From Hwanghaeella grinnelliae (GTDB lineage Bacteria > Pseudomonadota > Alphaproteobacteria > UBA8366 > Aestuariispiraceae), in assembly GCF_004005845.1 (NCBI RefSeq), contig NZ_SADE01000002.1, forward strand, positions 496,421-560,420: a stretch of DNA of 64,000 bases, read 5' to 3'. The notes under the pieces are model-generated. The model made no database searches. It had not been told where the DNA came from and saw nothing but the letters and a program-made list of their open reading frames with translations. Of this stretch, positions 1-4,860 are shown piece by piece. The number at the start of each line of letters is the position of its first letter. Positions within the stretch are counted from its first letter, which is position 1. The position numbers and the translations under genes are program-made.

Positions 1-358
1 AAACCAGCAGGATCATCACGATCAGCATCAGGATGGTGGAGAAGAATTCCGCCCCCCAAAGGAACCGCCCCTTGAGGCGGCCGATCAGGATGTCCATGCG
101 GATGTGACCGCCCAGGCGCTGACAATAGGCGACGCCGATCATGGCAATCACCGGCATCAACTGTTCAATCCAGTCGACATAACCCGGCAGAGGCTGGTTG
201 AAGAAGTTCCGCCCGCCGACGCTGATCACCGCCAGGACCATCAACGAAAAGACGGCCAACCCGCCGAGCAGGGCGAGGGCCGATTCGATTTTGAAGAAGG
301 CCCGGTCGATGCGGCTGAGGGTGCTGTCATCCGACAGAATGGAGGCGTGGCCCGCCAT
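1..358 (-). CDS. dctQ: TRAP transporter small permease (DctQ family), partial
   Basis: This is the N-terminal 119 residues of a DctQ-type small membrane subunit of a TRAP transporter; the C-terminus lies outside the window. Three hydrophobic segments are visible, roughly residues 29-50, 63-78 and 98-119. The stretch GGHIRMDIL after the second segment matches the conserved DctQ motif, in which the chain re-enters the membrane after a basic loop. The ATG at 358-356 follows the binding-protein gene by 80 bases on the same strand, which is the usual dctP-dctQ-dctM order; dctM is expected just beyond position 1. In the known family, DctQ pairs with the large DctM permease in Na+-driven uptake of organic acids. 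The substrate cannot be told from sequence. Confidence 0.85.
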   Translation of the reverse strand, partial: MAGHASILSDDSTLSRIDRAFFKIESALALLGGLAVFSLMVLAVISVGGRNFFNQPLPGYVDWIEQLMPVIAMIGVAYCQRLGGHIRMDILIGRLKGRFLWGAEFFSTILMLIVMILLV

Positions 359-438: not shown

Positions 439-1449
439 TTAACTCCCGGAGACGGTGCTTACGACGAGGTCGTAAAGTTCCTGGGCCGGCAAACCGCGGG
501 CCTTGTTGTCTTCGATCCATTTCTGGGCGGCAGGGCCGGCGACCTTGGCTTTCAGGTCGGCGATGGCGTCGGCGTCATAGGTGATCTGTTTGATCCCCTT
601 TTTGTCCAGCAACGGACCCCATTTCGCCATGGTCTTTTCGTTGTAGAAGTCGATGTAATAGGCCATCGCTTCATCAACCGATCCCAGCAGCGCGTCGCGC
701 TCGGCATCGGAGAGGGAGGCCAGTGCGTCGGTGTTGACCACGACCGGGCAATTCACGGTGCCTGGGTTCAGATTGGTGGTCCACCACTCGGCGTTCTCAA
801 CCGTGCCGAAGGACATATGGGCGTGCGGGGCGAAGGAAACGGCCTTCACCACACCGCTGTCCATGGCCTGGCGCACTTCCGTCGCGGACATGGAGGTCGG
901 CACGGCACCGAGAGCCGCCATCGCTTCACCGATCCCGCCGGTGGCGCGAACGGACATGCCGTCGAAGCCGGACAGCGCGGTCGGCGCATCACCGACACCG
1001 ACCACATTGTACTGCGGCAGCGGGGTGGGCATCAGCAGCGTCGCGTTCCACCGCGCCAGGTCCGCCTGGACCGCCGGATGGTTATAGACGGCCATCGATA
1101 CCTTGTTTTCCAATTCCAGCGAATCTACGCCCAGGAACGGCAGTTCCAGAACCGTGATCGACGGGTTCTTATCGGCATGGTACCCGGCGCAGAACTGCGC
1201 CATTTCAAAGGCGCCGATGGAGATCCCGTCCAGGTTCTCCTTGTTCTTGGCGAGACCGCCGTAAGAGATGTTCAGGGTGAATTCGCCATTGGTCTTCGCT
1301 TTGACCAGTTCGGCGATCTTTTCGACATGTTCGGTAAAAGCGCGGCGCTTGCCCCAGAGCGAGACATTCCATTCCGTCGCCATGGCTTCACCGACGAACG
1401 ACGTGGCAATCAGCGCCGACACGGCGACGCCTAGATACTTGGCTTTCAT
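439..1449 (-). CDS. dctP: TRAP transporter periplasmic substrate-binding protein (DctP family)
   Basis: A 336-residue extracytoplasmic solute receptor. The first 24 residues form a Sec signal peptide with a cleavable AMA|TEW end. The rest has the DctP fold pattern: an early GGLAKNKENLDGISIGAFEMA region, and the conserved central stretch GFDGMSVRATGG that carries the carboxylate-binding Arg of this family. The length is typical. It lies upstream of dctQ and downstream of a DctB/DctD-type sensor-regulator pair, so ligand-induced expression is likely. The start is backed by a GGAGGT-like ribosome-binding site about 7 bases upstream. The ligand is unknown; the GISIGAFEMAQFCAGYH region resembles receptors for aromatic or small organic acids, but this is not decisive. 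Confidence 0.9.
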   Translation of the reverse strand: MKAKYLGVAVSALIATSFVGEAMATEWNVSLWGKRRAFTEHVEKIAELVKAKTNGEFTLNISYGGLAKNKENLDGISIGAFEMAQFCAGYHADKNPSITVLELPFLGVDSLELENKVSMAVYNHPAVQADLARWNATLLMPTPLPQYNVVGVGDAPTALSGFDGMSVRATGGIGEAMAALGAVPTSMSATEVRQAMDSGVVKAVSFAPHAHMSFGTVENAEWWTTNLNPGTVNCPVVVNTDALASLSDAERDALLGSVDEAMAYYIDFYNEKTMAKWGPLLDKKGIKQITYDADAIADLKAKVAGPAAQKWIEDNKARGLPAQELYDLVVSTVSGS

Positions 1450-1551
1450 GCTGACCTCCCAGCTTTTGAGTTATTGAAACTTTTGTTGGGCCGGACCTTA
1501 TGAGAGCGCCGCCGGGCGAACTATGAAGATTTTCGCCATACGGGCCGGTTT

Positions 1552-1573
1552 GCCCTGCGGATTTCCGCAGGGC
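1552..1573 (-). terminator. Perfect hairpin between dctD-type gene and dctP
   Basis: GCCCTGCGG, a four-base loop, then CCGCAGGGC: a perfect 9-bp stem 25 bases past the end of the response-regulator gene and about 100 bases before dctP. There is no T tract on either strand, so it could be a factor-assisted terminator, an mRNA-stabilising hairpin or an attenuator rather than a classical intrinsic terminator. It separates the regulatory pair from the transporter operon. Confidence 0.5.
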
Positions 1574-1597
1574 TGCGTCTGATGCCATTCGGGAGGG

Positions 1598-3040
1598 TCA
1601 GATCAGATCGGCTTTATTGAGGCCGAGTTTGACGATCTTTTCGTTCAACGTCCGGCGACCGATGCCCAGCGCCTCGGCGGCGGCATCCATCCGCCCCTTA
1701 TGCGCCTGGATCGCCTTCGCGATGAGCTGACGTTCGAAGGAAGCAACCGCCTCGCGCAGGGTTTCCGGCACATCCATGCTGTCGCCGTCGAGGGAGATCG
1801 CGCCGGCGACGGAGCCGCGCCCGCGTCGGGCGGCCAGCACCCGGCGTTCGGCAACATGGCGCAATTCCCGCACATTGCCGCGCCAGTCATGGGACAGCAG
1901 CGCGGCGAGGTCTTCCGGCGTCAGTTCCGGCGGGTCAATTTCGAACAAAGCCGCGTGCTGGGCGACAAAATGCTGATAAAGCAGGGGAATGTCGTCCCGC
2001 CGTTCGCGCAACGGCGGCAGGGTCAGGACCACGGTGTTAAGGCGGTAGAGCAAATCCTCTCGGAACGTGCCGGCAGCGACCGCCGCGTCCAACCGCTCGT
2101 TCGAAGCGGAAACGACACGGAAATCCGCCCGCACCGGCGCGGTCGCGCCAACCGGCAGGAATTCCCGCGTTTCGATGGCGCGCAACAGTTTCGCCTGGGC
2201 GGGCAGGGGACAGGCCCCGATTTCATCCAGGAACAACGTCCCGCCATCGGCCACGGATAGGGTCCCTGTTTGCGCCGTGGCGTTTTGGCCGCCATGGCCG
2301 CCCGACAGGCCGAACATTGCGGTTTCGAAATGGGTTTCCGGCAAAGCCGCGCAATTGAGCGCAATGAAAGGGCCGGCGGCGCGCGGGCTCAAATCATGCA
2401 GGGCACGGGCGACCAATTCCTTGCCGGTTCCGGTTTCGCCCAGCAGCATCACCGTCGCATCGGTTTCGCCGAGGTCAAGGATATCGGCGCGCAGATCCTG
2501 AATCGGCTTGGAATCGCCCAGCAGAATACGGTCCAGATCCGAAAGATGCGCAAGGCGCGCCCGCAGCCGGGCCGTATCCTGGCGAAGGCGGTATTGTTCC
2601 GCGGCATGGCGCAGCGCGGTCATCAAGCGGCGCGGGTCGAACGGCTTTTCCAGGAAAGTATAGGCGCCGTCCTGCATCGCTTCCACGGCCATCGGGATAT
2701 CCCCATGGGCGGAAATCAACACGATGGGCGGGGTATCCGCACCGGCCAGACTGCGCAACAGGTCCAGACCCGACAGGCCCGGCATGCGCACATCCGACAG
2801 AATGACGTCCGGCTGGAACCCGGTGATGCGCTGGCCCGCATCGACCGCGTCGGCCAAAGCCTCCACCCGCCAACCCGCCTTTCCAAGCAGATGGGTCAGC
2901 GAGTCCCTCATCTCACGGTCGTCATCGATCACAATGATGCGGCGACCGGGCGTGTCCTTGCCCTTCTTGCCCGATGAATCGCCGCGCGAAACGGCGCCAT
3001 TCGAATTCGCGTTGGCGGCATCCTTGGCGGGGTGCGTCAT
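1598..3040 (-). CDS. dctD: DctD-type AAA+ response regulator lacking the GAFTGA loop
   Basis: A 480-residue NtrC-superfamily regulator. The order is a low-complexity tail (1-33), a receiver domain with phosphoacceptor Asp83 (SDVRMPG) and Lys132, an AAA+ domain with Walker A GETGTGKE at 201-208 and Walker B (GGTLFLDEIG), an arginine-finger region, and a C-terminal Fis-type helix-turn-helix (about 455-478). The segment that normally carries GAFTGA, the loop that contacts sigma54, here reads MFGLSGGHGGQNATAQTG (242-259), so the motif is absent. In the known family that loss abolishes sigma54 activation; Rhodobacter capsulatus NtrC is a GAFTGA-less member that works with sigma70. The gene overlaps the sensor kinase by 4 bases, so the two are translated together. 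The target is presumably the adjacent TRAP operon. Confidence 0.88.
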   Translation of the reverse strand: MTHPAKDAANANSNGAVSRGDSSGKKGKDTPGRRIIVIDDDREMRDSLTHLLGKAGWRVEALADAVDAGQRITGFQPDVILSDVRMPGLSGLDLLRSLAGADTPPIVLISAHGDIPMAVEAMQDGAYTFLEKPFDPRRLMTALRHAAEQYRLRQDTARLRARLAHLSDLDRILLGDSKPIQDLRADILDLGETDATVMLLGETGTGKELVARALHDLSPRAAGPFIALNCAALPETHFETAMFGLSGGHGGQNATAQTGTLSVADGGTLFLDEIGACPLPAQAKLLRAIETREFLPVGATAPVRADFRVVSASNERLDAAVAAGTFREDLLYRLNTVVLTLPPLRERRDDIPLLYQHFVAQHAALFEIDPPELTPEDLAALLSHDWRGNVRELRHVAERRVLAARRGRGSVAGAISLDGDSMDVPETLREAVASFERQLIAKAIQAHKGRMDAAAEALGIGRRTLNEKIVKLGLNKADLI

Positions 3041-4860
3041 GGGCGTGAAGGTCCTTCCGTTTTCAGCGGCAAGGTAACGGTGAATTCAGCGCCGCCGCCG
3101 TCTTGTTCCGGAATGTCGCGCGCCGTCAGCCTGCCATCGTGCTCTTTCACGATCTCCGCCGAAATGGCAAGGCCGAGGCCCATGCCCTCGCCGCTGGCGC
3201 GCGTCGTGACGAAGGGTTCCTGCAGCGCCTCGATGGTCAAGCCGCCCAGACCGGGCCCGGTGTCACGAATGCTGAGCTGCGCCAGGTCATCGGCATCCTC
3301 CACCCGGACCGTCAGCTTGCGCCGCGGTGCGGATTGCATGGCCAGGACGGCGTTCCGGCACAGATTGACGACGACCTGTTCCAGGCGCAGCCGGTCGCCC
3401 TGCACCATTACCGGCGCATCGGACAATTGCGCGTCGAGTTTTATTCCCGCGCCGTCCAGATCGGGTTCGATCAAGGCGAAAGCCTCGTGCCAAACATCTT
3501 TTAAATCGACGGGCTTCATATCGACCGGCTTCAAACCGACGGCCCCGTTCGCCCCGCCATCGACGCCCGCGCCGCTGGGCCGCGCGAAAAAGCGCAACTG
3601 CTGCGTCAGGCGTTCCATCCGCCCGACGACGGAGGACAGACGGGAAAAGGTCTCGCTGTGCTCGCCAGGCACGGCATCCAGTTCCGCAGCAGCCAGATAA
3701 TTCTTCATGGCGGAAATCGGTTGTCCCAATTCATGGGTCACCGATGCCGCCAGCTGGCCCAAAGCGGCAAGCTTGCTGGTCCGCGCCAATTCGGTTTGCG
3801 CCTTTTCCAACCGGCGTTCCGCCTCTCGCCGTTCCTCGATCTCGCGCGCCAGGTCGATATTCGCGGCCTGCAGTTTCCGGCGCGCAGCCTGGGATTCGGC
3901 GAGTGATTCGCGGACCCTGCGGATGCGCAGATACAAGCCGGCGGCGGAAATGACGATCGCCAGGATCGCGGCCCCGATGACCACCAACCAGGCACGGGTC
4001 AACACATCCCGTTCCGGCGACAGGAAATGCAGCACCCAATCCGATCCTTGGATAGGGGCCGTGACATGCAGATGAGACACACCGTTCAGGCGGACTTGGT
4101 CCGGGCCAAGGCGTTTCCAGTCCAGCGGCGCCAGCGCTTCCTGGCCGAACTGTTTCCTTGCCTGAATTGCCCGGCGCTGATCTGCGCTGAGCGCATCGAG
4201 CGCGCGGTACCGGATCGACGGTTCGGAGGATAACAGCACGATGCCGTCCCGGTTGGAGACGAAAACCGTCTCTCCGCCATCGGACCAGGCGCGTTCCAAC
4301 CCGCTGAGGTCGAGTTTCAACGCCACGACCCCCACAATCGCCCCATCGGTATTTCGTACCGGCTCCGCAATGAAATAGCCGGGCCGGGACGTGGTCGCCC
4401 CGATGCCGAAGAACTGGCCGCGTTCGCCGGCAAGCGCGGCGCGGAAATACGGGCGGAAACCGTAGTTCTGGTTCAGAAAGGTCAGATCCCGATCATAGTT
4501 CGACGCGGCTACGGTCAACCCGGTCCGGTCCATCAGGTAGATGGCGTCCAGGTCAGCCTCCGACGCGAAGGAGGCGAGGCGCGCGTTTAGCTGTTGCCGC
4601 CCGAAGCCCTGTGCCGCGCGCAGCACGAAAGGGTCGTGGGCCAGCACGAAAGGCAGGTGCTGATAGCGTTCCAGGGCGCTGAGCAACGTGCTGCGATACA
4701 GCGTGACGCGGCTTTGCGCGCGCTGCAGTTCCAGGGATTCGAAATAGGACCGGGCGGTAAAGAAGACCAACACCATCAGGCCGATCACCGCCACCGCGGC
4801 AACTTTGCCCCACAGCCGTCCTATTCCCCAGACCCGTTGTCCAATGGCCGTCTCGCTCAT
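3037..4860 (-). CDS. dctB: DctB-type sensor histidine kinase
   Basis: A 607-residue membrane kinase. TM1 lies at about 19-36, a periplasmic dCACHE-like sensor at about 37-283, and TM2 at about 290-312. A coiled coil (315-360) follows, then the dimerisation and phosphoacceptor box with His376 (ASVTHELGQP) and an HATPase domain with N box (NLCRNAV), G1 (DTGPG) and G2 (GMGLGLAIS). The H-box wording and sensor architecture are those of DctB, which senses C4-dicarboxylates in rhizobia; the ligand here may differ. The stop overlaps the start of the regulator (ATGA), giving one transcript. Together they should control the TRAP transporter downstream. Confidence 0.9.
   Translation of the reverse strand: MSETAIGQRVWGIGRLWGKVAAVAVIGLMVLVFFTARSYFESLELQRAQSRVTLYRSTLLSALERYQHLPFVLAHDPFVLRAAQGFGRQQLNARLASFASEADLDAIYLMDRTGLTVAASNYDRDLTFLNQNYGFRPYFRAALAGERGQFFGIGATTSRPGYFIAEPVRNTDGAIVGVVALKLDLSGLERAWSDGGETVFVSNRDGIVLLSSEPSIRYRALDALSADQRRAIQARKQFGQEALAPLDWKRLGPDQVRLNGVSHLHVTAPIQGSDWVLHFLSPERDVLTRAWLVVIGAAILAIVISAAGLYLRIRRVRESLAESQAARRKLQAANIDLAREIEERREAERRLEKAQTELARTSKLAALGQLAASVTHELGQPISAMKNYLAAAELDAVPGEHSETFSRLSSVVGRMERLTQQLRFFARPSGAGVDGGANGAVGLKPVDMKPVDLKDVWHEAFALIEPDLDGAGIKLDAQLSDAPVMVQGDRLRLEQVVVNLCRNAVLAMQSAPRRKLTVRVEDADDLAQLSIRDTGPGLGGLTIEALQEPFVTTRASGEGMGLGLAISAEIVKEHDGRLTARDIPEQDGGGAEFTVTLPLKTEGPSRP

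Follow-up and report, generated by a model that had tools for sequence, protein, structure and literature searches.

At one end of the window (the whole 64,000-nucleotide stretch of Hwanghaeella grinnelliae DNA that was analysed) lay genes of a dctB-dctD-dctP-dctQ-dctM operon, whose features are collected in Table 1. The gene order was syntenic in most of the loci compared, and a DctB kinase partner was encoded alongside dctD. The dctD gene was a complete open reading frame whose translation gave 480 amino acids. Its product had the architecture of a bacterial enhancer-binding protein, with a receiver, a Sigma54_activat AAA+ domain and a Fis-type HTH (Pfam PF00072, PF00158, PF25601 and PF02954, all above cut-off). 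The residues of the NtrC family were present as well, namely Walker A (GETGTGK, residues 201-207), Walker B (GGTLFLDEIG, residues 266-275), the arginine fingers, sensor II and the phospho-Asp.

Table 1. Features of the dct locus in window coordinates.
Feature	Position	Strand	Remarks
dctQ, TRAP small permease	1..358	-	runs past the window edge; dctM next, outside the window
dctP, TRAP solute-binding protein, presumed target gene	439..1449	-	
Candidate sigma70-type promoter	1495..1523	-	-35 TAGTTC 1518-1523, 17 bp, -10 TAAGGT 1495-1500 (or CATAAG 1497-1502)
Proximal degenerate DctD box GGCGAAAATCTTCA	1524..1537	-	32 bp from the distal box
Distal DctD box, perfect 22-bp palindrome GCCCTGCGGAAATCCGCAGGGC	1552..1573	.	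core TGCGGAAATCCGCA at 1556-1569
dctD, loop-less NtrC/DctD-type response regulator	1598..3040	-	receiver 35-143, AAA+ 174-339, Fis HTH 432-471
L1 loop region LSGGHGGQNATAQTG	2264..2308	-	residues 245-259
dctB, sensor kinase (dCache, HisKA, HATPase)	3037..4860	-	4-base overlap with dctD

The initial annotation had described an AAA+ domain that kept Walker A and Walker B and lacked GAFTGA, and both observations were borne out. Loop 1 of the window DctD read MFGLSGGHGGQNATAQTGTLSVADGGTL. In an alignment to the nearest GAFTGA-bearing orthologue, from Curvivirga aplysinae (L121/L038), which was gapless at the loop, the place of GAFTGA was taken by GHGGQN (residues 248-253, window 2282-2299). The AlphaFold model was confident across the AAA+ core, and very low confidence within the core was confined to residues 248-255, which were predicted to be disordered. 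The top Foldseek matches were Brucella NtrX and NtrC1; Brucella NtrX itself is not known to carry GAFTGA. A frameshift or assembly artefact at the loop was rejected because no GAFTGA-like string occurred in the other frames and the motif was also missing from every close relative. Elsewhere in the same genome, NtrX (L004, G000:C1:1940419-1941777) had no GAFTGA loop either (ALFGREPNGETARMVGLLEQ), as in other alphaproteobacterial NtrX. Another homologue of sigma54 activators (L008, G000:C4:555947-556867) had lost the Walker A lysine (GEAGTDTA) and carried GAIPGA instead of GAFTGA, and thus was probably independent of both ATP and sigma54. A TIM-barrel (PEP-hydrolase-like) protein (L021, G000:C1:485531-486370) was fused to a Fis HTH and to the degenerate remnant of an activator AAA+ domain, in which Walker A was missing.

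Orthologues were sampled by a genome scan that yielded 80 named loci, and more were added by further genome searches. GAFTGA was missing from all sampled orthologue loci except L109 (GSFTGA) and L121 (GAFTGA). The usual change was an exact deletion of eight residues; other proteins were short of 3, 12 or ~17 residues, or the segment had been refilled. In a quick tree built with the loop columns excluded and no bootstrap, a single branch (SH-aLRT 99) separated the loop-less proteins from the rest, and none of the 78 rows in the window DctD's branch had GAFTGA. The comparison of orthologues that the initial annotation had proposed therefore placed the loss across the clade. Since the sisters of the window protein (L048 and L049) had the eight-residue deletion, the most plausible account of the window's full-length loop is that the segment was deleted and later refilled with eight unrelated residues. 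Within the DNA of the refilled loop (window 2282-2308), two 9-base units (GGCGGCCAT GGCGGCCAA) formed an imperfect tandem repeat, from which part of the secondary insertion may have arisen.

In all 87 loop-less proteins we found the Walker A Lys, the Walker B Asp, one of the arginine fingers, the sensor II Arg, the phospho-Asp and the receiver Lys, while the Walker B Glu and the other arginine finger were each present in 86 of 87. Thus DctD combined a lost loop with a retained AAA+ domain, as GAFTGA-less sigma70 activators of the Rhodobacter capsulatus NtrC type do. The largest deletions, in L177, L178 and L193-L195, removed ~17 residues and with them the entire L1 loop together with its flanks, MFG among them; these loci kept the Walker motifs and the dctP box. 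Two loci had record titles from other phyla (L050, Mesoflavibacter, Bacteroidota; L101, Blastopirellula, Planctomycetota), yet their operons were alphaproteobacterial. The L050 contig was nearly equal to genome G011 of the window's family, and both titles were probably mislabelled or misbinned.

The gap before dctP contained a match to the DctD site TGCGGA-WW-TCCGCA, and the core of the palindrome was identical to that in the upstream region of Sinorhizobium meliloti dctA. The gaps of loop-less orthologues had a second, degenerate box 32-33 bp from the first. In the ten genomes with a loop-less DctD, a box was always found within ~125 bp of dctP (eight perfect, two with one mismatch), even in G005, where dctD and dctP were on different contigs. 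In contrast, there was none within 400 bp of dctP in the 18 genomes that had dctP and only distant DctD paralogues or none. For 10/10 against 0/18, the simple Fisher odds were ~1 in 13 million, only a guide because the genomes were related. Only one further perfect box occurred in the window genome (G000:C3:522950); it lay inside a TPR-type coding sequence and was therefore treated as chance. The palindrome was also considered as an intrinsic terminator, but the T-run was missing and no terminator was found.

The promoters of the operon existed in two states. In the 148-base gap of the window (1450-1597), no position had GG and GC in the frame required for a -24/-12 element, and the best score over 1450-2000, which covered the gap and the end of dctD, was 0.62 of the maximum; the frame check and the scoring agreed with the earlier remark that this gap held no such site. 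All three loop-bearing relatives had the same dctB-dctD-dctP order, paired boxes and a -24/-12 downstream of them. In L109 the boxes were 32 bp apart and the element (TGGCACATGAGTTGCT) lay ~120 bp downstream, and in G002 the boxes were 33 bp apart and the element (TGGCATGTGACTTGCG) lay ~70 bp downstream, with 0 of 300 shuffles as good in either case. In L121 (33 bp; TGGCATTTATTATGCC, ~120 bp downstream) the significance was only moderate, as 4% of shuffles were as good. On the other hand, none of the 51 loop-less gaps (median 127 bp, range 110-284) reached the lowest loop-bearing score or p < 0.05. The resulting 3/3 versus 0/51 did not amount to 54 independent trials because the tree reads one transition.

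In the loop-less gaps, a -35 resembling TWGGCA stood directly against the second box, with a -10 (xATxCT) 17 bp further on. The pattern xAxxxT at this spacer was found in 66% of the gaps (62% after thinning; 0 of 2000 shuffles), compared with 27% at 18, 15% at 19 and 0-6% at most other spacers. The -35 elements were poor. If transcription starts 7 bases after the -10, one box is predicted to be centred between -42 and -45 and the other between -74 and -78; for L109, assuming a sigma54 start 12 bases past the GC, the centres came out at ~-155 and ~-188. The window's own -35/-10 was weak and was missed by a strict consensus scan, which reported no promoter; the element was conserved in the clade.

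The window genome had an intact rpoN gene whose product, of 512 aa, showed the expected N-terminal region and RpoN box on visual inspection. It also encoded other activators with GAFTGA, GAFSGA or GSFTGA, so sigma54 was presumably used elsewhere in the cell. Accordingly, the claim of sigma54-independence for the window rests on the lost contact and promoter rather than on a missing sigma factor. The situation was different in the relatives. Of 63 genomes surveyed, 60 with a loop-less DctD remained after two loop-bearing genomes and one duplicate were set aside, and in 31 of these ~60 no match to Pfam Sigma54_DBD was found, with controls behaving as expected; six of the rpoN-less genomes were listed as 100% complete. 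The promoter anatomy was common to both groups: a box was present in 23/23 rpoN-less and 15/15 rpoN-bearing gaps, and a -10 at spacer 17 or 18 in 22/23 and 14/15, respectively. Since cells without rpoN cannot offer sigma54 and share this anatomy with the window, sequence comparison gave sigma54-independence good support in the branch, and common descent extends this to the window DctD. The sigma54-independent mode put forward initially was thus strengthened by the clade-wide loss of the loop with ATPase and phosphorylation residues kept, the split in -24/-12 elements, the missing rpoN in about half of the loop-less genomes and the sigma70-type -35/-10 conserved beside the DctD boxes. Orthologues of this branch are annotated as sigma-54 dependent in public records; on this evidence, the annotation was wrong for the ~85 proteins examined. 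Such annotation leads regulon predictions astray in marine bacteria, a group in which sigma54 is often missing. Among the tested alphaproteobacterial genomes with a dctBD-dctPQM operon, about half were rpoN-less, complete ones included.

The substrate of the transporter was approached through the solute-binding protein and the neighbouring genes. The window protein scored 44.5 against TIGR00787, below the cut-off of 175, and neither PDB nor family searches pointed to a particular substrate. Beyond the window start (G000:C2 ~491789-496168, L128:2369-6748), dctM was followed by PdxA-like and 3-hydroxyisobutyrate-dehydrogenase-like genes, and the same stretch had a divergent amidohydrolase-like gene. 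Together, these genes hinted that the substrate is a hydroxy acid and not simply a C4 dicarboxylate. In a transporter screen of Ruegeria pomeroyi, C4 acids were assigned to SPO2626-2628, which is other than the SPOA0237-0240 operon.

The R. pomeroyi DSS-3 orthologue of the regulator, SPOA0237 (dctD-2, L157; matched to SPO_RS21020 via gene order), was loop-less by sequence. In three mixed communities, the log2 fitness differences were -0.27, -0.25 and -0.22 for SPOA0237, -0.18, -0.2 and -0.18 for dctP (SPOA0238), and -0.14 in each community for dctM (SPOA0240) (PMC10041152, Table 1). The same sign in regulator and transporter mutants suggested activation, but the effects were small and the sign may reflect polarity of the SPOA0237 transposon insertions on dctPQM. 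R. pomeroyi has been described as possessing just one true sigma54 activator, belonging to another GAFTGA type (PMC3162934), consistent with the loop-less DctD having been left uncounted.

Taken together, DctD had probably lost its ability to work with sigma54 and become a phosphorylation-dependent activator of dctPQM at a promoter of the sigma70 family. Within this reading, we infer that DctD binds and acts positively, where transcription starts and what ATP and phosphorylation contribute. DctB would phosphorylate Asp83 of DctD, which would then oligomerise via its intact ATP site on the two boxes 32-33 bp apart. As the weak box would lie beside the -35 (~-42) and the strong one at ~-75, DctD may recruit or stabilise ordinary RNA polymerase in the fashion of a class II activator. 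The ancestor, an ordinary sigma54 activator, would have used the same pair of tandem boxes from the distance of an enhancer. In one evolutionary step, the loop would have been deleted and -24/-12 exchanged for a nearby -35/-10, with the deleted segment refilled afterwards in the window lineage. A broader proposal, which we hold only tentatively, is that the whole branch made a single coupled switch from sigma54 to sigma70, the boxes moving from ~-155/-188 (as in L109) to -42/-75, and that selection maintained the full ATPase machinery. The ATPase oligomer might then work on RNA polymerase carrying sigma70, or its hydrolysis of ATP might control DNA binding, and its role would be one undescribed for class II activators.

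An alternative is that the loop-less DctD represses or anti-activates dctPQM, with the proximal box at the -35 blocking RNA polymerase until a signal arrives. That box does overlap or abut the -35, and TyrR represses some promoters. So does Caulobacter NtrC, another protein without GAFTGA (PMC10274813). However, the shared fitness sign in R. pomeroyi was unexpected for a pure repressor, the poor -35 elements were typical of activator-dependent promoters and the strong box was upstream at ~-75, which made repression unlikely. It was far less probable that DctD still depended on sigma54 through an atypical loop and an unrecognised site. The intact rpoN, the loop that was back to full length and the intact AAA+ catalytic residues would fit such a mode, but the loop contained neither F nor T, both of which are required (PMC3162934), no -24/-12 was present in the gap or at the end of dctD, the nearest relatives were eight loop residues short, and about half of the clade was rpoN-less with an unchanged promoter. 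A decaying gene, whose loop was lost once the regulator had fallen out of use, hardly deserved consideration: loop length and sequence did vary (8, 12 or ~17 residues deleted, or refilled), but catalytic, phosphorylation and DNA-binding residues were invariant or nearly so in 87 proteins across a deep tree, which ruled out a pseudogene, the operator was co-inherited with dctD and R. pomeroyi showed a fitness phenotype.

Compared with known systems, the dctBD-dctA system of S. meliloti was similar in its receiver-AAA+-Fis regulator with a DctB partner and in an identical box (TGCGGATTTCCGCA) upstream of dctA, ~90 bp from its -24/-12. However, S. meliloti DctD has GAFTGA and its dctA a perfect -24/-12 (TGGCACGCATGTTGCT), neither of which was found here, and the target here was a TRAP transporter. 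The initial annotation had counted few natural exceptions to GAFTGA, with R. capsulatus NtrC as the example; that case is documented, but there are more, including Caulobacter NtrC, VspR/VpsR, TyrR, DhaR and HupR. According to PMC3162934 and PMC10274813, VpsR/VspR, TyrR, DhaR, HupR and YplP have a defective GAFTGA and are known or presumed to be sigma70-dependent; unlike DctD, they have other receiver or sensor domains and other target operons. As cited in PMC10274813, R. capsulatus NtrC, like the DctD branch an NtrC-type protein without GAFTGA, was reported to work with sigma70 RNA polymerase in a phosphorylation-dependent manner. It belongs to a different subfamily, its deletion is different from and larger than that of Caulobacter NtrC, and ATP binding but not hydrolysis was reported as essential, whereas the DctD branch conserved all hydrolysis residues. 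Caulobacter NtrC acts at sigma70 promoters, needs both ATP binding and hydrolysis, and has an eight-residue deletion in loop 1 spanning GAFTGA (PMC10274813). The deletion of eight residues was thus shared with the DctD branch, although Caulobacter NtrC represents an independent lineage (NtrC, not DctD) with a nitrogen and cell-cycle regulon, and the text consulted from PMC10274813 describes no sister lineage with the ancestral promoter.

In a literature search that was thin on subscription papers, we found no published report of a GAFTGA-less DctD branch. When an obligate sigma54 activator turns into an ordinary activator, usually only the end state is visible. The DctD branch was unusual in that an ancestral and a derived promoter survived side by side at the same operon. 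Operon, operator and kinase are the same in its living sister lineages, which between them display both states, and the switch is therefore open to stepwise reconstruction and testing.
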